DNA of 32,470 nt, from assembly GCA_013377005.1 (NCBI GenBank), contig JACABE010000035.1:1-32470 (forward strand), given 5' to 3'. Shown here in pieces: positions 17,158-28,827 of this stretch. A program made the position numbers and the translations under genes. This DNA comes from Bacteroidota bacterium (GTDB lineage: Bacteria; Bacteroidota; Bacteroidia; Bacteroidales; JACABE01). Under the pieces are notes generated by a model, which worked only from the letters and a program-made list of their open reading frames with translations, was not told the origin of the DNA and made no database searches. Numbering within the stretch: position 1 is the first letter of the stretch; every line of letters begins with the position of its first letter.

Positions 17158-18516
17158 ATGGAAAAATTAAGATATGAAAGACCGGTAATTAAAAAATTAG
17201 AAGCCGGTATGCCAAATAAATTTGGGCTAAGAACAGAATATACTCCAATGACACATATTGATGGTGTAGCTGTAAAAGATTTGGTAAAGGATTATGGTTC
17301 GCCTTTGTACGTGATTTCTGAAACAACTATCCGTTCAACTATTAATAAAGCTAAAAAAGCATTTACTACCCGTTATCCAAAAGTTCAGTTTGCCTGGAGT
17401 TATAAAACCAACTATCTGAATGCTGTTTGTAATGTTTTTCATCAGGAAGGTTCTTGGGCTGAAGTAGTTTCGGGTTTTGAATACGAAAAAGCTTTACGTA
17501 ATGGCGTAGATGGTAAAAAAATTATCTTCAATGGACCCGATAAAAGCGAAGCCGATTTACGAAAAGCAATCGAAAATGAATCTTTGATTCATATTGATCA
17601 TCTTGACGAATTGTATACTATTCTGGAAATTACCGAAACAATTGATAAACGTCCAAAAGTAGCTATTAGAGTGAATATGGATACAGGTACTTATCCTGTT
17701 TGGGATCGTTTCGGATTTAATTACGAAAATGGTCAGGCATGGGATGCTTTGAACAAAATTATGCGTTCAGGTAAACTGGAATTGGTTGGTTTGCATTGTC
17801 ATATCGGAACTTTTATGCTTGCAGCCAGTGCTTATGCTATTGCAGCAGGTAAATTAGCTGATCTTGCAATTGGAATCGAACAAAAATACAATCATTGCAT
17901 CAAATATATAGATATGGGTGGCGGATTTGCTTCAAAAAATACATTAAAAGGTTCTTATTTGCCTGGTTCTGATACCAATCCTACTTTTGATGATTTTGCT
18001 GAAGCCATCACAACTGCATTAATCAACAGTAATTTTAAGAACAACGAATTACCCACACTTATTTTAGAAACCGGGCGTGCATTGATTGACGAAGCAGGTT
18101 ATTTGATTGGAAGTGTAATTGCTAATAAACGTACTTCTTTGGGTAAACGTACTACTATTATTGATGTGGGGGTTAACTTATTGTTTACTGCTTTTTGGTA
18201 CGAACACAAAATGACACCTGCTCAGCCATTTACACATTATACGGAAACCTCACAGGTTTTTGGGCCTTTATGTATGAATATTGATGTAATTAGAGAAAAC
18301 ATTGATTTGCCACTATTAAATAAAGGCGATCAGGTGGTTATTTCTACTATTGGTGCTTACAATATGACGCAGTGGATGCAGTTTATTACCCTTCGACCGA
18401 ACATTGTGATGATTGATACTGAAGAAAAAGTGCATCTAGTTCGTGAAAACGAAAAGCTGGAAAGTATAACTGATCTGGAAAAAATGCCCGAACATTTAAA
18501 GAAATTTGATTTGTAA
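17158..18516 (+). CDS. type III PLP-dependent (LysA/ornithine decarboxylase-like) decarboxylase with leader-like N-terminus
   Basis: The 452-residue protein has the alanine-racemase-type PLP barrel: Lys83 in SYKTNYL, HCHIGTF (213-219), the phosphate-binding GGG (254-256) and ETGRALI (304-310). The C-terminal barrel has C372 and Y401 (GAYNMTQ). The usual 'GPxCDxxD' reads GPLCMNID here: the Asp after the Cys, which contacts substrate amines in ODC/DAPDC, is Met. The substrate is therefore probably not plain diaminopimelate. Residues 1-30 extend beyond the normal start and contain Y6-x2-P9 followed by I11, L14 and G17, close to the YxxPxL...G leader motif read by PqqD-like proteins. It lies 31 bp after the ATP-grasp gene. 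A terminator follows. Confidence 0.8.
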   Translation: MEKLRYERPVIKKLEAGMPNKFGLRTEYTPMTHIDGVAVKDLVKDYGSPLYVISETTIRSTINKAKKAFTTRYPKVQFAWSYKTNYLNAVCNVFHQEGSWAEVVSGFEYEKALRNGVDGKKIIFNGPDKSEADLRKAIENESLIHIDHLDELYTILEITETIDKRPKVAIRVNMDTGTYPVWDRFGFNYENGQAWDALNKIMRSGKLELVGLHCHIGTFMLAASAYAIAAGKLADLAIGIEQKYNHCIKYIDMGGGFASKNTLKGSYLPGSDTNPTFDDFAEAITTALINSNFKNNELPTLILETGRALIDEAGYLIGSVIANKRTSLGKRTTIIDVGVNLLFTAFWYEHKMTPAQPFTHYTETSQVFGPLCMNIDVIRENIDLPLLNKGDQVVISTIGAYNMTQWMQFITLRPNIVMIDTEEKVHLVRENEKLESITDLEKMPEHLKKFDL

Positions 18517-18540
18517 TAATCAGATTAACAATATTGCATC

Positions 18541-18579
18541 AAAAAAGCCGATGGCATTGATATGTTATCGGCTTTTATT
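18541..18579 (+). terminator. terminator of the PqqD/ATP-grasp/decarboxylase operon
   Basis: GCCGAT (18547-18552) pairs with ATCGGC (18567-18572), followed by TTTTATTTT. The first CRISPR repeat starts 6 bp later. There is therefore almost no room for a classical CRISPR leader on this side. Confidence 0.8.
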
Positions 18580-18584
18580 TTCTA

Positions 18585-20673
18585 GTTGTGATTTGCTTTT
18601 AAATTGTATCTTTGACATCTTATAAACAACGTTCCAAAGTTCCTTAATATGTGCTTTTTGGTTGTGATTTGCTTTTAAATTGTATCTTTGACATCTTATA
18701 AACAACAGCAGTATCAATATCAACTACAACCTGCCGTTGTGATTTGCTTTTAAATTGTATCTTTGACATCTTATAAACAACGATACTAATATTAATAATG
18801 CACCTGGGTGGGTTGTGATTTGCTTTTAAATTGTATCTTTGACATCTTATAAACAACTGTCACCATGTTTTTCTTGAACTCTTTCAGGTTGTGATTTGCT
18901 TTTAAATTGTATCTTTGACATCTTATAAACAACTGTGTTGGTATTACAAAGCAGTCATTATCGTTGTGATTTGCTTTTAAATTGTATCTTTGACATCTTA
19001 TAAACAACCTTCAAAATTTGGAGTATCAACACCTACAAGTTGTGATTTGCTTTTAAATTGTATCTTTGACATCTTATAAACAACAACTTATCACAATTCC
19101 GATCAGGTTGAAATGTTGTGATTTGCTTTTAAATTGTATCTTTGACATCTTATAAACAACAAGAAAATAGGCTTTTACCACGATGCTGTGTTGTGATTTG
19201 CTTTTAAATTGTATCTTTGACATCTTATAAACAACATATTTGCATCATATTTATAATACAAATAGTTGTGATTTGCTTTTAAATTGTATCTTTGACATCT
19301 TATAAACAACTAAAAAAATGCTCACTACACTCACTACATAGTTGTGATTTGCTTTTAAATTGTATCTTTGACATCTTATAAACAACGGTGGGTCTTTTAA
19401 TAGTAATTTCGCCCTCGTTGTGATTTGCTTTTAAATTGTATCTTTGACATCTTATAAACAACCTAAAAGTCTCTGTTCCTTGTTCAATTTTAGTTGTGAT
19501 TTGCTTTTAAATTGTATCTTTGACATCTTATAAACAACTGGTGGCAATAGCTCTAAAGCTATTCAGAAGTTGTGATTTGCTTTTAAATTGTATCTTTGAC
19601 ATCTTATAAACAACTTGACGATTTATACAATCGTTTTGCTGATTGTTGTGATTTGCTTTTAAATTGTATCTTTGACATCTTATAAACAACAAATATTCGG
19701 AATCTACAAAGGTAGCTATGTTGTGATTTGCTTTTAAATTGTATCTTTGACATCTTATAAACAACTAAGGGTGATGCAGGTGCGGCTGGTGCTAAGTTGT
19801 GATTTGCTTTTAAATTGTATCTTTGACATCTTATAAACAACTTATATTGAAGATTTAAGCAATATAAATTAGTTGTGATTTGCTTTTAAATTGTATCTTT
19901 GACATCTTATAAACAACACTAATATAACTATGCCACAATAACATAAGTTGTGATTTGCTTTTAAATTGTATCTTTGACATCTTATAAACAACATGAACGT
20001 AAGGATAATAAGGTTTCTCTGAGTTGTGATTTGCTTTTAAATTGTATCTTTGACATCTTATAAACAACCTTTTTCCCAGTAGCGTATGTATTTAGTAGTT
20101 GTGATTTGCTTTTAAATTGTATCTTTGACATCTTATAAACAACAATAACTATTAACACGTTAACTGTTGAAGAGTTGTGATTTGCTTTTAAATTGTATCT
20201 TTGACATCTTATAAACAACATGCCAATTATGAAATGCTTAAAAAGAGTGTTGTGATTTGCTTTTAAATTGTATCTTTGACATCTTATAAACAACGAAGCA
20301 ATATCCATCAATTGCAGCTTATATGTTGTGATTTGCTTTTAAATTGTATCTTTGACATCTTATAAACAACTTATTTGGGGTCAAGGTCCTGCATTTTACG
20401 GTTGTGATTTGCTTTTAAATTGTATCTTTGACATCTTATAAACAACACTACGAATCACTTAAATTGCTATTTATGAGTTGTGATTTGCTTTTAAATTGTA
20501 TCTTTGACATCTTATAAACAACCCCAACAAACAATTACAACAACAGAAACAAGTTGTGATTTGCTTTTAAATTGTATCTTTGACATCTTATAAACAACAT
20601 ATTGATAATCTGCTTTTGAAGATTCTAGTTGTGATTTGCTTTTAAATTGTATCTTTGACATCTTATAAACAAC
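18585..20673 (+). CRISPR. type II-C CRISPR array, 28 repeats of 46 bp, 27 spacers of 29-30 bp
   Basis: All repeats look identical by eye. Each begins GTTGTGATTTGCTTTTAAAT and ends ATCTTATAAACAAC. Repeat starts: 18585, 18661, 18736, 18812, 18888, 18963, 19039, 19115, 19190, 19265, 19341, 19417, 19493, 19569, 19645, 19720, 19796, 19872, 19947, 20023, 20098, 20174, 20249, 20325, 20401, 20477, 20553, 20628. All spacers differ. The plus strand is the crRNA strand, because the tracrRNA at 28868-28942 is complementary to repeat nt 2-8 and 12-23. Repeat nt 2-4 (TTG) and 23-30 (TATCTTTG) form a promoter with an 18-nt gap. Repeat nt 1-23 thus serve tracrRNA pairing, and the second half serves transcription start. 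A terminator follows at 20746. The absence of decayed repeats gives no hint of which end is older. Confidence 0.98.
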
Positions 20674-20745
20674 ATAGGTGGGGTTTATAGGTTCAAATTA
20701 AGAAAGTTAAGTGTGTTATTAGAATTGAAAAAAGATGTGCATTTA

Positions 20746-20782
20746 TAGCTCAAATCTGTAAGGTTTGGGCTATTTTTGTTTT
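20746..20782 (+). terminator. terminator of the CRISPR array transcript
   Basis: TAGCTCAAA (20746-20754) pairs with TTTGGGCTA (20764-20772, one G-T pair), followed by TTTTTGTTTT on the plus strand. It supports plus-strand transcription of the array and would stop transcripts before they enter cas2 from behind. Confidence 0.75.
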
Positions 20783-20805
20783 CTGAAATCTGGGTTTGTA
20801 TCTAT

Positions 20806-20840
20806 ATTCATCGGATGACTATAAAAGTCATCTGATGAAT
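20806..20840. repeat. REP-like palindrome pair between array and cas2
   Basis: ATTCATCGGATGACT (20806-20820) and AGTCATCTGATGAAT (20826-20840) are inverted copies with one mismatch and a 5-bp loop. The TCATCAGATGA core recurs at 22622-22687 and 23059-23124 around and inside the RAYT gene. It also makes a hairpin just downstream of the cas2 stop. Confidence 0.8.
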
Positions 20841-20849
20841 AGGAGAGGA

Positions 20850-21182
20850 CTAAAATAATTCTAATTGCTGCGGAGTGTCGGGTTTATTCTTGGGTTCTTT
20901 GCCTCTAAAGAGTTCTATCATCCCAAATTGTTTGTCGGTCAACGAAAAGATAATTACTTCGCCTCGTGGTGGTAATATGGTTTTTACTCTTTTTATATGT
21001 ACATCGGCATTTTCGCGACTGTTGCAGTGACGGATATAGATAGAGTATTGCATCATGGTATAGCCGTCTTTTTCCAATCCTTTATGGAAAAGACTATAGT
21101 TTTTCCTATCTTTTTTGGTTTCTGTAGGCAAATCAAAAAATACAAATACCCACATAATCTGATATTGGTTTAAACGATTCAT
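20850..21182 (-). CDS. cas2: CRISPR-associated protein Cas2
   Basis: Cas2 is the small structural partner of Cas1 in spacer integration. The 110-residue product has the ferredoxin-like start MNRLNQYQIMWVFVFFDLPT, with the conserved Asp in FFDLPT, and QYSIYIRHC. The start is set at ATG 21182; an in-frame TTG lies one codon upstream. The C-terminal tail is disordered-looking and Pro/Lys-rich and ends exactly in QLELF, which matches the QLxLF sliding-clamp binding motif. It is separated from cas1 by a four-helix-bundle gene. Confidence 0.95.
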   Translation of the reverse strand: MNRLNQYQIMWVFVFFDLPTETKKDRKNYSLFHKGLEKDGYTMMQYSIYIRHCNSRENADVHIKRVKTILPPRGEVIIFSLTDKQFGMIELFRGKEPKNKPDTPQQLELF

Positions 21183-21197
21183 CAATATTAATGAAGG

Positions 21198-21660
21198 AAT
21201 GAAGGAATGAAGAAATTGAAAAATATTGGAATATGAATAGTAAAATATAGTTTTTGAAATTTATTCATTTTATAAATTCTCTTTGGATGATTTTAATATT
21301 TTAGTCAATATTATTATAATTTCGTTACAATCGAATAATAGTGAATCGAATATAGCTTTGTCAATATATTCGCAATCAAATAAAAGTCTTAACCAATAAT
21401 GTGTTTCTTTGGCTTCTTTGAGTGAAATGGATAGTTTAGCAATAAAGTCTTTTTTGCTCTGACCAGAGTTGGCTTCTTCTATGTTTGCACCCACCGAAGT
21501 ACCACTTTTTAATATCTGTTTAGATAATACATATTCTTTATGCTCTTTAATCAAATACTTGTTTAGCTTTACAATGCGAACAGCAAAAGAATATGATTTT
21601 TCTTTAATTATATTTTCTTTCATTTGTCAAATTTTTTCTCAATTTCTACATTCTTTCATT
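21198..21660. mobile_element. IVS-like element: four-helix-bundle gene flanked by inverted repeats
   Basis: A 22-bp segment at 21198-21219 (AATGAAGGAATG then AAGAAATTGA) recurs inverted at 21639-21660 with two mismatches. The pair encloses the gene at 21270-21623. Genes of this family were first known from intervening sequences in 23S rRNA, where flanking repeats form a stem. The right arm overlaps the last codons and stop of cas1, so insertion between cas1 and cas2 probably rewrote the Cas1 C-terminus. That it moves as a unit is inferred. Confidence 0.5.
21270..21623 (-). CDS. four helix bundle protein (23S rRNA intervening-sequence / S23 family)
   Basis: The 117-residue, mostly helical product has the family hallmarks: YSFAVRIVKLNKYL, LSKQILKSGTSVGANIEEANSGQSKKDFIAKLSISLKEAKETHYWLRLL and IIIILTKILKSS. 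The family forms four-helix bundles that oligomerise and has a basic face. It is common in Bacteroidota both in rRNA intervening sequences and as free-standing genes of unknown function. It is placed between cas1 and cas2 on the same strand and enclosed by inverted repeats. There is no evidence that it takes part in CRISPR adaptation; a passenger element is the simpler reading. Confidence 0.9.
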   Translation of the reverse strand: MKENIIKEKSYSFAVRIVKLNKYLIKEHKEYVLSKQILKSGTSVGANIEEANSGQSKKDFIAKLSISLKEAKETHYWLRLLFDCEYIDKAIFDSLLFDCNEIIIILTKILKSSKENL

Positions 21661-22597
21661 TCTCAATTATCATTATCGGATATAATATTTTGCGTGTTTC
21701 GCCCTCAAAACAACTCGCCAATGATGCGGTAGTGCGTTGCATACCTACCATCAGCGGGCTGCTCTTTTCATCTATTATAATATCAATTACCGGCAACTGC
21801 AACAATCTTATTTTAATCTCTTTCGTTAATTCTTCGGTATCGGGATTTTCTTTCAAAATTTCAATCACAATTTTATCTACATAAGGGCGATAAGGTTCCA
21901 TAATATCATCTGCCAAACAATAAGGATTGTATTTGTTGCGATGATGGATGCCCAATGCCAATAACATACCACTGGCAACCAACGAGCGGGCAACTACAGC
22001 TCTTAATATGGCATAACCATAATTCAACAGATTATTGGGTGGGTCTCCAAATCTTCGTCTTGTGAAGTTTTGGATGTGTTGAAACAGGTTTTCCCAATAA
22101 TAGGCTGCTGCTCTGCCTTCGTAATTATCAGGGTCGCCACTTCCAACACTATTTTCCCAATATTTCATCTTGTCGGCATTGATGCCTGTGCTTGCCAGCA
22201 ATATTCTTTGATTCCTTATTTTTGCCATTACGGTTTGTTGCCACAAATTCTTTATCAAAGGCAATGACGAATCAATCTGAAATCGCATTTTTTCGGTAAA
22301 TGTATGATGGGCATACATAGGTAGCATTAAGCCTTGTGGCAAATGCGATGCGTTGCAACTAACGATGGCTACATTATTGTCGGTAAGTGCGGCTATTAAT
22401 CCCGATGTTATAGTTATTTGTTGGTGGTCAATTACAATTACACCAATATCTTCGATAGGGATGCTGGCAACACTTTCTTTTTTAAATCTATCGGTAAGTG
22501 TATCGTTGTTTTCTACCTCAGGCAATTTTACAAGCAATTGGCTGTTTTCCAGATGAAGATAAGCCGGATTGCCAAAATAAAGCGTTCGTTTTATCAT
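21656..22597 (-). CDS. cas1: CRISPR-associated endonuclease Cas1 (type II)
   Basis: This is the integrase of new spacers. The 313-residue product has the type II Cas1 signature with metal ligands Glu160 (DNYEGRAAAYYW), His218/219 and Glu234 (GIHHRNKYNPYCLADDIMEPYRP). The N-terminal beta domain begins KRTLYFGNPAYLHLENSQLL. The C-terminal YPIMIIEK is encoded within the inverted-repeat arm of the adjacent four-helix-bundle element, so the native tail may have been altered. No csn2 or cas4 gene is present, which supports subtype II-C. A REP pair lies immediately upstream (22622-22687) and separates cas1 from the RAYT gene. Confidence 0.97.
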   Translation of the reverse strand: MIKRTLYFGNPAYLHLENSQLLVKLPEVENNDTLTDRFKKESVASIPIEDIGVIVIDHQQITITSGLIAALTDNNVAIVSCNASHLPQGLMLPMYAHHTFTEKMRFQIDSSLPLIKNLWQQTVMAKIRNQRILLASTGINADKMKYWENSVGSGDPDNYEGRAAAYYWENLFQHIQNFTRRRFGDPPNNLLNYGYAILRAVVARSLVASGMLLALGIHHRNKYNPYCLADDIMEPYRPYVDKIVIEILKENPDTEELTKEIKIRLLQLPVIDIIIDEKSSPLMVGMQRTTASLASCFEGETRKILYPIMIIEK

Positions 22598-22621
22598 AAT
22601 TTTTGTTTTGAATAATAACTA

Positions 22622-22687
22622 ACTCATCAGATGACTAATTGAATTATGTTTCTATAATAGGCTGTATTTTGAGGTCATCAGATGAGT
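22622..22687. repeat. REP pair (BIME-like) between cas1 and the RAYT gene
   Basis: ACTCATCAGATGACT (22622-22636) and GGTCATCAGATGAGT (22673-22687) are inverted relative to each other, with about 36 bp between. They share the TCATCAGATGA core with the copies at 20806 and 23059. RAYT transposases characteristically sit next to such paired palindromes. Confidence 0.75.
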
Positions 22688-22692
22688 ATATT

Positions 22693-23202
22693 TTAGATTC
22701 TTTTAAATAAGGAATATTCAATAGCCCTTTCTCTGTTAATCAGTTTTCCGTTTCTCAATCCACAGTAATCTTTGCAAGAAGAAAACTCCCAGTCTTCGGC
22801 ATTTTTAACCAAATTTGCTTTTACAGGATTATTATGTATATAATCAAAACAAAGTTGGGGGTATTCTCTTTCGGGAATGCTTAAATTCAGATACGTTCCG
22901 TAAGGAGAATTAAAATAAGAAGGTGTAATACTTTCGGCTTTTGTAAGACATTGGGCTTTTGTATGAGGCTTAAACAAGGATCCTGTTCTGTTTTCCTGAA
23001 TATTTATAGCACGAGTGTAAGAGCGAAGCAGCGTAGCAATGGATTTGGTTAACTGACTACTCATCTGATGACTTGGTTGTTCCTGCTTGTTACTCATCAG
23101 ATGACTTGAGGTCATCTGATGAGTGTCTTTAATATACACCAACAAATGAAAATGATTTGGCATTAACCCTGTCAAATAAGATTTGAATTTTCGTTGTTCC
23201 AT
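22693..23202 (-). CDS. REP-associated tyrosine transposase (RAYT), C-terminal part of an interrupted gene
   Basis: This is the 3' portion of a Y1 HUH transposase (IS200-like/TnpREP). It has the HUH motif in MPNHFHLLVYIKD, the catalytic-Tyr region LLRSYTRAINIQENRTGSLFK and the family block YIHNNPVKANLV. The first 13 codons come from the end of the inserted GIY-YIG element; native sequence starts at MPNHFH (ATG 23161-23163). The N-terminal 50 codons lie at 23479-23628, beyond the insertion. Residues 27-55 (THQMTSSHLMS...SHQMSSQ) are translated REP palindromes. If expressed, this truncated protein keeps both HUH and Tyr, but lacks the first strand of the fold and is probably inactive. Confidence 0.85.
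   Translation of the reverse strand: MEQRKFKSYLTGLMPNHFHLLVYIKDTHQMTSSHLMSNKQEQPSHQMSSQLTKSIATLLRSYTRAINIQENRTGSLFKPHTKAQCLTKAESITPSYFNSPYGTYLNLSIPEREYPQLCFDYIHNNPVKANLVKNAEDWEFSSCKDYCGLRNGKLINRERAIEYSLFKRI
23059..23124. repeat. three REP palindromes inside the RAYT coding sequence
   Basis: ACTCATCTGATGACT (23059-23073), ACTCATCAGATGACT (23092-23106) and GGTCATCTGATGAGT (23110-23124). The last two form a tight inverted pair. They stay in frame, adding a Ser/His/Met/Gln-rich insert between the HUH and Tyr regions of the transposase. Confidence 0.85.
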
Positions 23203-23478
23203 CCTTTTAATCTATTTTTTAAAAACATTTTGCCATAATGAGTTTTAAGATATTTTTCTCTATGAGTTGCGTCTTGTTGGTTTAAAGAACCTTCAAAATA
23301 GATTAAAATTAAAGGTCTTCTGTTTTTAGTAGATGCTACATATCCATTGCAGTGTTGTTCAAATCTTAATTTTAAATTTTCAGTATAACCTGTATAATTC
23401 AATCCATCTTTAAGACTCCTCAATACATAAACATAATAAAATTTATTCATATTGAAAATTTTAAATTATTTGACAGGG
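23167..23478 (-). mobile_element. 312-bp insertion element carrying a GIY-YIG gene
   Basis: The ends are perfect 13-bp inverted repeats, CCCTGTCAAATAA (23167-23179) and TTATTTGACAGGG (23466-23478), extending imperfectly to about 26 bp. They are flanked on both sides by TAA (23164-23166 and 23479-23481; TTA in gene orientation), a 3-bp target duplication. The element splits the RAYT gene between Leu50 and the MPNHFH motif. Deleting element plus one TAA (315 bp) restores an open frame of 206 codons reading WCL-MPNHFH. The only gene inside is the GIY-YIG frame, whose stop codon lies within the terminal repeat. Confidence 0.85.
23172..23450 (-). CDS. small GIY-YIG nuclease
   Basis: The 92-residue product is a single GIY-YIG domain: YYVYVLRS (GIY strand), NYTGYTENLKLRFEQHCNG (YIG strand and helix with the conserved Arg), then THREKYLKTHYGKMFLK. 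It belongs to the UPF0213/YhbQ-like single-domain group, which is abundant in Bacteroidota. Only 28 bp separate the ATG from the element's right end, and the stop TGA is part of the left terminal repeat. The gene therefore fills the element and has no room for its own promoter; expression would depend on the host gene. Whether the nuclease drives movement or is cargo is unknown. Confidence 0.88.
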   Translation of the reverse strand: MNKFYYVYVLRSLKDGLNYTGYTENLKLRFEQHCNGYVASTKNRRPLILIYFEGSLNQQDATHREKYLKTHYGKMFLKNRLKGWNNENSNLI

Positions 23479-23628
23479 TAAACACCAAGCCAGCACATCG
23501 GCATAAGGCAATATATGTTTCCTTATTTTCTGCAAAAAGTAAAGATAGTTTTCTCTATTAAAGAAAATCTTTTGCCTATTGTTCCCTTGGTTGTATATAT
23601 GGTATATATGTCCGCTTTCAAAATCCAT
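23479..23628 (-). pseudogene. RAYT transposase, N-terminal fragment
   Basis: There are fifty codons from ATG 23626-23628. They read MDFESGHIYHIYNQGNN..., then RQKIFFNRENYLYFLQKIR and ILPYADVLAWCL, the typical start of this transposase family in Bacteroidota. The frame runs straight into the inserted element and ends at a TAA inside it. Joined to the ATG at 23163 it gives the complete 206-residue RAYT. No base changes are needed for the join, so the insertion looks recent. Confidence 0.88.
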
Positions 23629-23657
23629 AAACGCTGTGTTTTTTGAGTTTGATTATT

Positions 23658-23692
23658 AAGTGGGAGTGCGACTCAAAGTCGCACTCCCACTT
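23658..23692. repeat. GC-rich perfect hairpin downstream of the HU-like gene
   Basis: AAGTGGGAGTGCGACT (23658-23673) and its exact complement (23677-23692) enclose a 3-nt loop. A T-rich run follows on the plus strand only. It may end transcription of the HU-like gene or be another dispersed palindrome. It is far richer in G+C than the neighbouring sequence. Confidence 0.75.
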
Positions 23693-23696
23693 TTAT

Positions 23697-24092
23697 TTAG
23701 AAGCTTACCCGTTCAAATTTTGCTGATTTCAGTCGTCCTTTTAAGGGTTTCGAAGGAACAAATACCACCCTTTTTACCGAAATAGATTCCGCTCTTATTT
23801 CCGAAGGATCTTTTACTTCGCGGCGGCATTCAGCCGTAAGCGAAAATGTGCCGAAACCGTCAAAACAAACGCTGTTGCCGTTTAATAATTCTTCTTCAAT
23901 ACAACTTAACAAAACGCGAATAGTGCCTTCCATTTCAAAAGCATTGTTCTTTTTGCCCCGTGCCACTTGCAGTGCCAAATCAGCAATATTAACCGTTGCC
24001 GAGCGAACTACCTGCGGATAATAACCCGACTTCTTTTTATCGTCGGGATTCAGATAATCTTCCCGCTTAATCATTTTGTACTTTATACCCAT
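23697..24092 (-). CDS. HU-like DNA-binding protein
   Basis: The 131-residue product fits the Bacteroidota HU-HIG group. It has an N-terminal GIKYKMIKREDYLNPDDKKK lead, then an HU/IHF core with SATVNIADLALQVARG (helix), IRVLLSCIEEELLNGNSVCFDGFGTFSLT and the DNA-binding arm through ESISVKRVVFVPSKPLKGRL. It should bind or bend DNA. It lies between cas9 and the RAYT gene on the cas strand. HU/IHF proteins assist spacer integration in some systems, but this is probably coincidence here, as these genes are widespread in the phylum. Confidence 0.85.
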   Translation of the reverse strand: MGIKYKMIKREDYLNPDDKKKSGYYPQVVRSATVNIADLALQVARGKKNNAFEMEGTIRVLLSCIEEELLNGNSVCFDGFGTFSLTAECRREVKDPSEIRAESISVKRVVFVPSKPLKGRLKSAKFERVSF

Positions 24093-24423
24093 TGGTGCTT
24101 ATGTTTTAATGTAATTACCCCAAACAATTAGCAAAATACTCACAACAAAGTATTATAAACAATGCTATATATTTATTGTAACATATATATGCTAATAAGT
24201 GTATATTATATAAGTTAATACTATTAGCATATATATATTATATTAGCTATCATATATATGTTATTTTAAAAACTTTTCGTTGTAATAGATAAATATTCAT
24301 ATAGTTTGGTTTAATTTGTTGGTAATCTTTTGTTAGTTTGTAAGCATGAAATTCAAATTTTGATTTTGCTTAATGTTTTTTCGTTTGCTTAATTGAAAGC
24401 TTCAATAAAAGCGAAACACTCAA
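24093..24423. other. AT-rich gap with a 15-bp inverted repeat
   Basis: No gene is seen between the HU-like gene and the end of cas9. ATATATATGCTAATA (24183-24197) is mirrored by TATTAGCATATATAT (24222-24236), and a further degenerate copy follows near 24241-24262. No clear promoter for the HU-like gene is found: CAAA-rich stretches at 24120-24150 miss the consensus. It may be a regulatory site or a relic of an insertion. Confidence 0.5.
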
Positions 24424-27400
24424 TTATAGTTGTTGTATAAATGTAATTTCCCCGTCAGGGTTTATTTTGAAATCATAATTTTCAAATAAGCAATCTATAT
24501 TTCCAATACTTAATTTTAGTTTAGGCCAAGGGTTTTCATAGTTTACAAAAGAAAATCCTTGCCAGATTCCCTTTCCATATGTACTTTCAAGCTCTTTAAG
24601 TTGTTTATCTGTTCTACTATCTAAATGAAAACTAAATCTTATTCTGCCATCTTTCTCAAACCCATTTATTATATAAAGTCTTTTTGATAATTCATTTAAA
24701 TCAAGTTCTTGTATATACTCTTTTCTTTTATAGAATAAAACTTTTTGACCAATTTTTAAAGTTGCATATAAATTCAACTTATCTCCTTTTTTATTATAAT
24801 CAATTTCAGATACAACATCTAATTTGTGATTTTCGGATATACTTAACATTCCTGCAATATCAAACAAATTAAAAAGACGAAAACCTCTTACAATTTTTCC
24901 ATTAATAATTCCTTGATATAAAGCATATGCATAGTTTTCACCATTTGCAGCATAGACATATTGTTTATACTCTTTGTTTGATAAATTTATATTTTCTTTT
25001 TGAGAAAGGTATGTTTGTTTTTTAATTTTAAGGGGAGCTTTGTCTCTCACAAAGATTCTAATGCGTCTTATTTGATTAACTTTTTCTCCATATTTATTTA
25101 ACATAAAAATCCCATCATTCATCGCATCTTTAAATGATTTACCTTCAATTTGTTTTTTTATAATATTTTCAAAAAGATCTTTATTAACAATGCAATTTTC
25201 AATTTCCTCTAATGTTTTAAAGCCAGGACTCTGAGCATCCTTTTTAAATACAAAAGGTTCTCTAACAACATATATTATTTCATCATTAATAACAAATTTC
25301 CCGTCTTTAATAAGATAATCACCATTAGCATCTTTATATGGTAGTTTTATTGCACCAAGGTTAGTATCCTTATGTAATTCTCCTCGAATACAATCTCCTT
25401 GTGCAATTTTCGGAATTAGATTTCCATTCACATCTTTTATTAAATCGCCTTGTTTATCTCTTAGGTAAACAACTTTACCTCTTCGGCGAACTATCTTTTT
25501 ACCAGGAGTCAAGGTTTGATCTTTTGCTGAATTATTTATCAATATTGTTTCTTCAATTTTATTTAAAATATATTCGATATTTGGCAAATTCAGTTGTTTT
25601 AATTTGTATGATAATCTTTCTTTGATTTGAGAGGCAATGTCATTTTTTTGCAATTGCTTGTTTTCAAGATATTCATAGAAGATTTGTAGAATTTCATCTC
25701 GTTTTGCTGCTGTTGGTATCATTGTAAGTACCGTGGCATCAATAGCATGATGCGAATGTTTATCACGGCTCTTTTTTACATACATTTCTTGTATTCCAAG
25801 AATTTTTCTGAAATCGGCTGTAATATTTCCTTTTTGAACATCTACGCGATTGAATGCTGTTTTAAGATAATGCAAAGCGTATTTTGATATAAGTTGTGTA
25901 TCTATAAGCTGGCTGTTTTTAAATCCGCTCGTTACTTCTATCATAGTAAAACGATTTAACTTATTTTGCCAATAATCCAACTCCATTTGCCAAAGGTGCC
26001 TTTGACGGATGGCATCGTCTTTATAATTTTTATCTGATGCTGATTTTGATTTACCTTTCCAAAACTCAATATTGGTTTTTAATTGCTGTACCTTTCCCTC
26101 CCAAGCCTTTAAACGAGGTTTAATAGCTTGATATCCACTCCATTCTTGTTCGTAGTTTGGTAATTGTGTTGGAATCATGTTTCCTTTTATTTGCCTGTTG
26201 TATTGAGCATAACAAACAGTAAGATTAGCCAAGGAATTGTCAAAAGAAATGCTTCTTGGAATGGTGTGTTCAAAATCGACTTTGTTTTCATCAAATAAAT
26301 CGGTTAATGAAATCATTTTCCCTGTGTACATACACACACATTGTTGTTCCTTCCATAAACGATATTTCTCAATATCTGTTTTCTTTGCATAAGACTCTTG
26401 AATTAGCTCAGTTGTGTTATTTTCCCACTTTTGTTGAGCATATTCACCTTTGCCTTTTTGGACGGGATTGTTGTTCTCTAATTGTTCATACCAAAGTCTT
26501 ACTTTATCTATATCCTCAGAATTCTCTGGATTTGTATTTGTTCCATTATTAAATAATTCCTTTAATGCTGCTTTGAATTCATTATTTTCAGCTTCTCGTT
26601 GTTTTTGGTATGCTTCAATTGCCCATCGTTTATTGGCATCGTTTAATTCTCTGGCGGTTTCAACTACTATGCGAGTTTCTTCGTCAATCTGCCCTGTTTT
26701 AATAAGGTAGTTTATAAGTTTGCGAAGTTCATGTAAGGTTCGCATTGCCATTGGATTTTTAAAAGAACCAGTTTTAGGACTTTGCAAATATATTTTACCA
26801 TCCTCGTTTCTTTTCGCACTTGGATAGATTTCTATCATGGAAGGATGATACAGTGTTTGAAGTTTTTTATTAGATATTTCGGGGAATTTTTGTTTTATAA
26901 ATAAAGCAATTGTATCTGATACTCTTGGTAAAATATAAAATTCTCTTTTACTGTTCTGAAAAAAGCTTTGATAAAAATATGTTACTTCATCAAGCACCAT
27001 ACTTTTATATGTTTCATCTGCTTTTTCCCATGTCTTTTCCCCTATTGATCCAATAATAGTTTGAAGTATTTCTTTTTTATCACTTTCATCTAATTTGTAA
27101 TCGGTATTCCTAAAAGCAAACTGTTCATTGTCTGGTAAAGCTTTGTATTTTGAGATTAAAATATTGACAATGTTTCTAACTCGTTTTTCATATTGATTTT
27201 GTTCAATCAGCGTTTTCATACTTGTTGTAAGTAATTTACTATTCTCCATCCAAAGATCTTTTCCTAAAATACTTGGCATATTTGCCAACATAACGGCTTC
27301 CGAATAAATAAATCCTTGTCTTAAAAAAACATTAATTTTTTCAATAGCATTAAGGCTCAACATGGCATATCCATCTTGCAATCGTTTCCATGTGGCAACA

Positions 27401-28827
27401 AATTTGTCTGTTAATTCCAAATCAAGATTTAGTTTTTCAATCGCAAATTCTTTCACAATTTCATCATCTTCAAAAGAAAATAACACATGCCAAATATCAT
27501 GTACGTTGTATGAGATGGAATGTATTTTTGTTTCTGCCTTTTTATTAATGGTAATTCTTGTTGTGGTAGTTTCTTTTTTATATTCTTTCCAGTTTTCTCC
27601 GAATATTTCTTTTAAAGAGGCGGATATCGGGCAAGCAGAAACATTTGTTTTGTCATTGTAATTAATAGTTTTAGCTTTATAATCTAACTTCAGATTAAGG
27701 CTTTTTTCCATCTTCTTTCTAATGTCTTCAAAATGAAAATTGGTTTTTGATTTTCTAAAGAATAAAGTATCGTATATTTCTTGCTTAAGTTCCGTAGTGA
27801 GTAAATACCAGACTCCATCTTGTTTGTATTGAATATTATTGAGAAGAGATAGTGCTCTAAATTCTTCAAATTCTGGATGATTAATTGGACAACGAGGCTT
27901 TCCTGTTTGAATAGCTTTTCCTGTTTTTTTATCAATGAAAAAGCTATTCTCAAGAGAACAAATTCCAACCAATCCTTTTTGTGAGCGTAAAGGTCTTTGA
28001 AAGAATATTGCTCCGTTAAATCGGTTTTTTTTATTTTCAACGAGATTTTTATAGAAATCAGATTCAATACCAATATTTTGAAATTCAAATATAGTAGTGA
28101 TTTCTTCTTTATATTGTTTCCTGAAAGTATGTTGTATCCAGTTTAAACGAACTCGTTGTTTTTGTGTTTCTATAAAGTGTAATGCACAACCTATTGTTTT
28201 AAAATCCGATAATGATTTCTCAAACTGTTTTTGCAATTCTTTTTCAAATTCATCATTCTTTTTTAATTCGGATTTAGCTTCTTTACCTTCACTAGTGTCA
28301 GTTGCTTGAGCATCTTTTCTACTACTCTTAAATCCTCGACGTTGAGCAATATGATAAAAGGCACGCCCAATCTTAAAACGATTACTTTCAATAGTTAAAT
28401 CAAGTTTTGTTTCAACTAATTCTGCTCTTAATTGGTATGGGCTAAAATAATCAGGTTTACCATCATTATTAAAATCTAATCTTATCCATTGTTCAAATAT
28501 TTCGATGTGAGGATAGGCTCGTTTTGTTTCTTTATCGTACTTTCTCCATTTATCTAATTGCTCAATTGTCATTGGACAATACCCAAACTTAATAAGAACT
28601 TCCAATGTTGCCCATAGTCTATATTTCCTTGCTTGATTTAATCTTCTTCCTGCACGGTGTTTTGTTCTTTCTGCTGCAAATGAGAATTCTCCGGTTTTTC
28701 CATTACCAACACCTTTCTCAAATGTTACAACACCAAATTTTTCAATTTCATTTTCTGATAAGTCTGTGTTTCTGATTGACCATCCAATGGAATTTGTTCC
28801 TAAATCTAATCCTAAAATTTGTCCCAT
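24424..28827 (-). CDS. cas9: CRISPR-associated endonuclease Cas9, type II-C
   Basis: This is the RNA-guided double-strand nuclease. At 1467 residues it is of the large Bacteroidota II-C type. Active-site parts are complete: RuvC-I Asp8 in ILGLDLGTNSIGW; an Arg-rich bridge helix (about 50-85, AERTKHRAGRRLNQARKYRLW); RuvC-II Glu723 in IVVETARELN; HNH His854 in VDFEHTIPRS; and RuvC-III His1027/Asp1030 in SHHAIDATV. The C-terminal PAM-interacting region (about 1150-1467) is divergent, and no PAM can be read. The predicted promoter is at 29025-29056, giving a leader of roughly 190 nt that crosses the tracrRNA gene in antisense. Confidence 0.98.
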   Translation of the reverse strand: MGQILGLDLGTNSIGWSIRNTDLSENEIEKFGVVTFEKGVGNGKTGEFSFAAERTKHRAGRRLNQARKYRLWATLEVLIKFGYCPMTIEQLDKWRKYDKETKRAYPHIEIFEQWIRLDFNNDGKPDYFSPYQLRAELVETKLDLTIESNRFKIGRAFYHIAQRRGFKSSRKDAQATDTSEGKEAKSELKKNDEFEKELQKQFEKSLSDFKTIGCALHFIETQKQRVRLNWIQHTFRKQYKEEITTIFEFQNIGIESDFYKNLVENKKNRFNGAIFFQRPLRSQKGLVGICSLENSFFIDKKTGKAIQTGKPRCPINHPEFEEFRALSLLNNIQYKQDGVWYLLTTELKQEIYDTLFFRKSKTNFHFEDIRKKMEKSLNLKLDYKAKTINYNDKTNVSACPISASLKEIFGENWKEYKKETTTTRITINKKAETKIHSISYNVHDIWHVLFSFEDDEIVKEFAIEKLNLDLELTDKFVATWKRLQDGYAMLSLNAIEKINVFLRQGFIYSEAVMLANMPSILGKDLWMENSKLLTTSMKTLIEQNQYEKRVRNIVNILISKYKALPDNEQFAFRNTDYKLDESDKKEILQTIIGSIGEKTWEKADETYKSMVLDEVTYFYQSFFQNSKREFYILPRVSDTIALFIKQKFPEISNKKLQTLYHPSMIEIYPSAKRNEDGKIYLQSPKTGSFKNPMAMRTLHELRKLINYLIKTGQIDEETRIVVETARELNDANKRWAIEAYQKQREAENNEFKAALKELFNNGTNTNPENSEDIDKVRLWYEQLENNNPVQKGKGEYAQQKWENNTTELIQESYAKKTDIEKYRLWKEQQCVCMYTGKMISLTDLFDENKVDFEHTIPRSISFDNSLANLTVCYAQYNRQIKGNMIPTQLPNYEQEWSGYQAIKPRLKAWEGKVQQLKTNIEFWKGKSKSASDKNYKDDAIRQRHLWQMELDYWQNKLNRFTMIEVTSGFKNSQLIDTQLISKYALHYLKTAFNRVDVQKGNITADFRKILGIQEMYVKKSRDKHSHHAIDATVLTMIPTAAKRDEILQIFYEYLENKQLQKNDIASQIKERLSYKLKQLNLPNIEYILNKIEETILINNSAKDQTLTPGKKIVRRRGKVVYLRDKQGDLIKDVNGNLIPKIAQGDCIRGELHKDTNLGAIKLPYKDANGDYLIKDGKFVINDEIIYVVREPFVFKKDAQSPGFKTLEEIENCIVNKDLFENIIKKQIEGKSFKDAMNDGIFMLNKYGEKVNQIRRIRIFVRDKAPLKIKKQTYLSQKENINLSNKEYKQYVYAANGENYAYALYQGIINGKIVRGFRLFNLFDIAGMLSISENHKLDVVSEIDYNKKGDKLNLYATLKIGQKVLFYKRKEYIQELDLNELSKRLYIINGFEKDGRIRFSFHLDSRTDKQLKELESTYGKGIWQGFSFVNYENPWPKLKLSIGNIDCLFENYDFKINPDGEITFIQQL

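Follow-up and report, generated by a model that had tools for sequence, protein, structure and literature searches.

The GIY-YIG gene lodged between the two halves of a RAYT-like gene in this Bacteroidota genome is the only gene of a compact element with inverted ends, and comparison with its relatives brings out the insertion itself, conserved complementary arms, a link between nuclease lineage and invaded gene, and gene-less forms with the same ends. With moderate confidence, we interpret the unit as a homing-like mobile element driven by its own Slx1/UPF0213-like nuclease, which would act as the mover. In the open-licence literature, we found no work on GIY-YIG proteins as the sole gene of bacterial inverted-repeat elements.

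The insertion in the RAYT-like gene

In the window, by which we mean the whole 32,470-nucleotide stretch of DNA analysed, the split RAYT-like gene and a gene for a four-helix-bundle protein (23S_rRNA_IVP; 21270-21623) lie among type II CRISPR-Cas genes (20850-28827), together with cas2 (20850-21185), cas1 (21656-22597), an HU-like gene (23697-24092) and cas9 (24424-28827), all of them on the minus strand. A direct-repeat array with a period of about 75-76 bp (18500-20850) adjoins cas2, as expected for a CRISPR array. Genes of the four-helix-bundle type are in turn invaded by relatives of the element, as described below.

The element measures 312 bp from CCC to GGG (23167-23478, minus strand), as delimited by the sequence and a repeat search. 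Its perfect 13-bp inverted repeats, CCCTGTCAAATAA at the 3′ end of the nuclease gene (23167-23179, plus strand) and TTATTTGACAGGG upstream of it (23466-23478, plus strand), are exact reverse complements of each other, and their pairing runs one A/T pair further (23166 with 23479), giving 23166-23479 with this outer pair. On either side, the element is abutted by TAA, or TTA on the gene strand (23164-23166 and 23479-23481). The gene enclosed (23172-23450, minus strand) encodes a 92-aa, single-domain GIY-YIG nuclease, its TGA stop falls within the terminal repeat, and the transposase that would be expected of an insertion sequence is absent. All of this, from the discrete insert with perfect ends and TAA on both sides to the nuclease as the only gene with its stop in the terminal repeat, had been anticipated in the original prediction and is borne out by the repeat search, the open reading frames and the Pfam match.

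Omitting 315 nt joins the 50 N-terminal codons of the RAYT-like gene (23479-23628, minus strand) to the remainder, which starts with MPNHFH (22693-23163, minus strand), in one open frame encoding a 206-aa protein, just as had been proposed. The empty site is real, because six uninterrupted homologues from related genomes read through the junction, five with AWCLMPNH[FY]H and one with AYCLMPNHFH, in agreement with the predicted reading WCL-MPNHFH. At the level of sequence, the stretch 23167-23478 is thereby confirmed as an insertion with inverted ends that splits a RAYT-like gene. The name RAYT is a below-cut-off label here, given that the NCBIfam REP_Tyr_transpos cut-off is 80 bits and that the joined 206-aa protein reaches 59.6 bits and the fragments 31-48 bits; at locus L035, the N-terminal fragment has no REP_Tyr_transpos match, and the gene part beside the element matches weakly (28.9 bits). 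REP_Tyr_transpos is nevertheless a better test than PF01797 (Y1_Tnp), because only the former detects the RAYT-like gene of the window, which the latter misses. Just upstream of this gene lies a perfect inverted repeat (23658-23692; arms of 16 bp, loop of 3 nt), which could be a terminator or a palindrome of the REP type.

A coding MITE could likewise show inverted ends with TTA to either side. Such a non-autonomous element would depend on a DDE transposase acting in trans, perhaps one of the IS5 type, and would carry the GIY-YIG gene as a passenger. Some IS5-type groups produce a TNA duplication, and a fixed TTA or TNA target duplication had indeed been proposed. This part of the original prediction fails at the eight loci where conserved codons flank the junction: the net insertions of 315, 312, 314, 316, 316, 316, 287 and 288 nt differ, and the flanks are unequal (the comparators being the six RAYT homologues, L030, L031 and L033 mutually, L047 for L039, and the four-helix-bundle gene of the window for L074). 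A target duplication of constant length, as insertion sequences have, is not seen, the edges are not constant, and the TTA repeat of the window is, on these alignments, one outcome among several. We consider the coding MITE rather unlikely, and further evidence on it is given below.

The same junctions bear on an RNA-level intervening sequence, either a group I intron or a bypassed segment such as that of T4 gene 60, which gene expression would remove or skip. With complementary ends, the gene halves could be brought together, and the net 315 nt of the window are divisible by 3, but this holds for 3 of the 8 measured insertions, which is about chance. Moreover, besides the arms there is hardly any non-coding DNA, too little for a group I core, and an Rfam scan of the element locus of the window (L003) at gathering thresholds found no match. 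Frame and size lead us to reject ribosomal bypass and intron splicing, and an explanation of this kind seems to us scarcely credible.

Covarying arms across the family

A scan of a species-genome collection retrieved 62 loci encoding relatives of the window nuclease, 56 of which were examined alongside the window, with the partial matches L083, L084 and L088-L091 left out. Complementary arms (score of at least 9) surround the gene at 31 of the 34 non-epimerase loci (33 plus the window), compared with 4 of 34 when the right flank was reversed, and thus exceed chance. The expectation that relatives in many genomes would carry the same kind of ends around their GIY-YIG genes was therefore met by the data, and terminal inverted repeats, a hallmark of insertion sequences, are a feature of the family as well as of the window, where they are perfect over 13 bp. 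At the epimerase loci, introduced below, good arms are mostly absent (9/23 versus 4/23 in the control).

The commonest arm form is ACCCYGTSAAATAA...TTATTTSACRGGGT, and the variants CCCTGTC, CCCCGTG, CCCTATG, CCCGGTGG and CCCTGTT change jointly on both sides. Across 26 distinct arm pairs, pairing amounts to 91.7%, as opposed to 75.8% (highest 82.1%) with the right arms re-dealt, and none of 5000 re-dealings reached the observed value; position 8 of the arm alone is occupied by G-C in 17 pairs, C-G in seven and T-A in one, and is unpaired in one. From arm to arm, the elements are mostly 271-330 bp long. By record titles, hosts of elements with arms include Bacteroidota, Moranbacteria (L038), Parcubacteria (L060), Saccharibacteria (L082), Nitrospinae (L080) and Clostridia (L045), many of these records being metagenome bins in which a single host name may be wrong. 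Judged from the aligned arms, they covary across Bacteroidota, CPR and other hosts.

The flanks follow a partial rule. Around the ACCC...GGGT unit, TTT/GAA or TTC/AAA was found at 14 of the 39 gene-bearing elements that could be aligned (a set that leaves out epimerase loci and 6 duplicates), compared with a shuffled mean of 6.4, and 14 was reached in none of 20000 shufflings. These two combinations are mutual reverse complements, one end reading TTTACCC and the other TTCACCC inward. The window, flanked by TTT/TAA, is an exception to the rule, and among 11 further rows that could not be aligned, inspection by eye found that L006, L007, L008 and L132 obey it, that L021 does not, and that six have other arms.

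How widely such elements have spread was gauged in several ways. The exact 13-mer end occurs at two places in the 3.69-Mb draft genome of the window, both at the element itself, which is thus present in a single copy. In 198 genomes of the same phylum, the end pattern gave 44 matches versus 19 in the reversed control, from which we conclude that the element is patchy; as an account of why small GIY-YIG genes are so numerous in this phylum, the proposal remains weak. The short-palindrome pattern TTYACCCYN{12,42}RGGGTRAA showed no overall excess in 59 relatives (37 matches versus 50 in the control), while G054 had five versus none. Two loci of one Galbibacter genome, L049 and L051, lie in two epimerase genes and carry nucleases with 96% DNA identity, and their flanks beyond 60 nt are at alignment background (0.71 and 0.69). 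L123 and L124 of G305 share 88% identity with flanks likewise at background, and the remaining same-genome pairs tried share 74-79%.

Target genes and the nuclease

Six nucleases reside in RAYT-like genes and occupy three different sites, namely WC^L-MPNHFH (the window, L032 and L035), NNPV^HHGF (L031 and L033) and HP(F)^EY (L030). The genes of L031 and L033 are visibly of a different RAYT subtype from those of the window and L032, and the last two sites are reciprocally empty: the gene of L030 shows no break at the position filled in L031 and L033, and neither of these two has one at the L030 position. Other elements lie in four-helix-bundle (23S_rRNA_IVP) genes, with L039, L042, L047 and L066 passing the Pfam cut-off and L040, L041 and L074 staying below it. 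A second large clade is found at TGGAGF^IG in genes which, by this motif, we label nucleotide-sugar epimerases/dehydratases, and at 20 of its 23 loci a 5′ stub upstream of the element is accompanied by a complete gene start downstream. At L061 and L085, a truncated nuclease copy stands upstream in tandem (the end of the copy being repeated), and at the epimerase loci L052 and L067, the upstream region resembles the downstream linker; these arrangements suggest, as far as sequence can tell, that the same epimerase gene was invaded repeatedly.

The six RAYT-inserted nucleases form one clade (support 100/95). Trees were built from 48 and 49 proteins, with rows containing stops or too short omitted, and on the larger tree, which rests on 84 columns and has weak deeper forks, the target label changes 6 times, compared with 23.7 times when shuffled, a value reached in 0 of 200 shufflings, although target family and host taxonomy are in part confounded. 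Nuclease lineage, as read from this tree, predicts the invaded gene family, an association that speaks against a mere passenger gene in a coding MITE. A homing endonuclease would be tied to a conserved target, as the clade-target association indicates here (6/6 RAYT-like), and it would also cut one defined site, whereas this one clade has used three within RAYT-like genes; what insertion seems to follow is the gene family, here RAYT, and not one exact site.

These observations have to be weighed for a free-standing homing endonuclease gene that would spread by ordinary double-strand break repair, its palindromic ends being incidental or acting at the transcript level as terminators. Besides the association of nuclease clade and target family, the epimerase loci fit such a gene, as they keep an intact gene beside the 5′ stub, mostly without good arms, and the T4 seg/mob genes provide a precedent for intronless homing and for transposition-like insertions that split genes (PMC2988022). 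The T4 seg GIY-YIG homing endonucleases resemble the present family in being stand-alone genes, in their lineages being tied to conserved targets and in gene-splitting insertion (PMC2988022). The window family differs from them in its covarying terminal inverted repeats, its gene-less relatives, several sites per target family, and a nuclease fold nearer UPF0213/Slx1 than I-TevI. By these likenesses, free-standing T4 endonucleases are the nearest analogue of the gene-bearing form. Arms that covary and are kept at nearly all non-epimerase loci, dispersed gene-less elements with the same ends, and three different sites within RAYT-like genes nonetheless make a homing gene with incidental ends quite improbable.

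The nuclease itself, which in our preferred reading drives the element, matches the Pfam GIY-YIG family with E=3.4e-15, and its AlphaFold2 model consists of a single confident GIY-YIG domain (pLDDT 91.6). The nearest solved folds in Foldseek are UPF0213 (1zg2, E 9.3e-4) and the branched-DNA nuclease Slx1 (7cq2, E 2.2e-3), with I-TevI (1ln0, E 2.3) far behind. Residues Y8, Y19, R29 and E65, which we take to be catalytic, are invariant in 37 of 37 nucleases, so that modelled fold and conserved Y, Y, R and E together point to a UPF0213/Slx1-like member of the GIY-YIG superfamily. Like UPF0213/Slx1 nucleases, the protein is a minimal GIY-YIG domain, and it differs from them in being the only gene of an inverted-repeat element; within its 92 aa, there is no separate DNA-binding domain able to read a long target. 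Ka/Ks was 0.02-0.11 in the 5 of 10 nuclease pairs with a usable ratio, which do not include the gene of the window and in three of which Ks exceeds 1; in the other five, Ks was saturated in three and zero in L063/L064, and the estimate failed for L058/L069. From these ratios, the GIY-YIG protein appears to be kept for its function by purifying selection, which again counts against a passenger role in a coding MITE. The window nuclease had no match in the plasmid collection, the phage collection, PADLOC or PHROGs, and a profile scan of viral contigs returned one locus (52% identity).

Gene-less relatives and a proposed route of movement

Matches to the arms clearly exceed the reversed control in three of 25 genomes, G303 (32:2), G305 (15:2) and G302 (40:18), and are also more than twofold in G315 (11:4) and G321 (20:9); no such excess was found in the other 20, including the genome of the window (13 versus 17). 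Regions of G302, G303 and G305, all of which possess GIY-YIG relatives, contain short elements, mostly of 31-65 bp, that form hairpins and carry the same arms, and in G303 a partner arm lies within about 180 nt in 17 of 18 regions. Among 37 rows of mini-elements, three of which are nested readings of one tandem array (L160), the flanks are TTTA/TGAA or TTCA/TAAA in 15 and TTTA/TAAA in five, and 21 fold into a three-way junction made of one outer stem and exactly two hairpins inside it, a count made without a shuffle control. Tandem arrays of mini-elements occur at L160 and L185.

Several further structures were seen in the same genomes. In G303, a complete tRNA gene lies within a 145-bp element that shares these arms (L180, G303:C8:25400-25800). 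In G305, a 16S rRNA gene contains, close to its 5′ end, a more distant GIY-YIG gene (36% identity) whose complementary arms are 20 bp long (L141, G305:C9:52000-54369; 16S match from 1109). In G302, two tandem distant GIY-YIG genes (43% identity) follow an apparent tRNA gene end, with CCCCCTCTCTCCGC repeated beside each of them (L139, G302:C43:155000-158400).

REP/RAYT systems combine a small single-domain nuclease, a Y1 enzyme, with dispersed short palindromes that fold into hairpins, and RAYTs are thought to mobilise REP elements. The present family shares this combination, and a RAYT (Y1 HUH) transposase might accordingly mobilise the hairpin-ended elements: the six-member clade sits in RAYT-like genes, the mini-elements are REP-like palindromes, and G000, G302 and G305 have Y1_Tnp or REP_Tyr_transpos matches (seven and five, respectively, in G305). 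However, the nuclease of the family is a GIY-YIG and not a Y1 enzyme, other clades reside in four-helix-bundle and epimerase genes, and G303, a draft genome with the clearest arm excess, has palindromes without any Y1_Tnp or REP_Tyr_transpos match, so that the dependence on Y1 that characterises REP/RAYT elements is not observed there. We regard mobilisation by a RAYT as very unlikely.

The gene-less mini-elements also fit a coding MITE, as do DDE_Tnp_1 matches in the genome of the window (three, on C6, C40 and C16), G302 (two) and G303 (one, on C37). But none of these contigs in G000 or G303 has an arm match, G302 has one contig shared by both, with about 32 kb between them, and G305 has no DDE_Tnp_1, the only DDE family searched; no full-length IS sharing the ends of the element was found for DDE_Tnp_1 in G000, G302, G303 or G305. 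Among Y1_Tnp, REP_Tyr_transpos and DDE_Tnp_1, no alternative enzyme common to G302, G303 and G305 was found. Like bacterial MITEs and IS, the element of the window is short, has inverted ends and a short flanking repeat, and is inserted in a coding gene, whereas its family has no transposase, a conserved nuclease of its own and no constant target duplication. The first interpretation hence survives in part: the discrete, inverted-ended nuclease unit and its relatives stand, the fixed TTA duplication does not, and the idea of an IS5-like transposase moving a coding MITE is weakened, given the lack of a second exact end in its own genome and the single contig on which DDE_Tnp_1 and arms meet.

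Mitochondrial double-hairpin elements and GC clusters are described as mobile by an unsettled mechanism, endonucleases having been proposed, and they resemble the gene-less forms as hairpin elements without genes, found both in genes and in spacers (PMC4478555, PMC2800124). The window family differs from the double-hairpin elements in being bacterial and in having outer arms common to a nuclease-encoding element. On these grounds of analogy, they are the nearest analogue of the gene-less forms.

If the nuclease is the mover, as we favour, the arms would form a hairpin or cruciform, often a three-way junction in the gene-less forms, and the nuclease would cut the base of the branch, the preferred target gene, or both. 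Repair could then copy the element in through a few bases of microhomology at the TT...AA edges, which would account for edges of 1-3 nt being variable and for TTT/GAA and TTC/AAA being frequent flanks. The targets of the epimerase branch remain whole, as the 5′ end of the gene is duplicated next to the element. Counting against a nuclease-driven route are the presence of one clade at three sites, unlike a classical homing endonuclease, the partial flank rule (14/39), the single copy in the genome of the window, the 20 of 25 genomes with arm matches at no more than twice the control, the short-palindrome pattern falling below its control in 59 relatives, the lack of a separate domain for a long target in so small a protein, and the epimerase loci mostly lacking good arms.

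Small stand-alone GIY-YIG genes are usually named only by family, and here, in several phyla, a coherent set of them makes up the whole gene content of compact elements, which have diagnostic ends, preferred targets and derivatives without the gene. More tentatively, and with somewhat less than even confidence, we suggest that these are a transposase-free class of prokaryotic elements, in which a minimal Slx1-like nuclease would recognise branched DNA formed by the palindromic ends, insertion into favoured gene families would proceed by break repair, and gene-less forms would spread in trans as bacterial counterparts of mitochondrial double-hairpin elements. The epimerase branch would represent homing in which duplication of the 5′ end keeps the invaded gene intact. 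If the nuclease does move these elements, they would follow a route of transposition that needs neither a DDE nor an HUH transposase, and would offer a tractable bacterial system for asking how palindromic double-hairpin elements, those of mitochondrial DNA among them, are mobilised.
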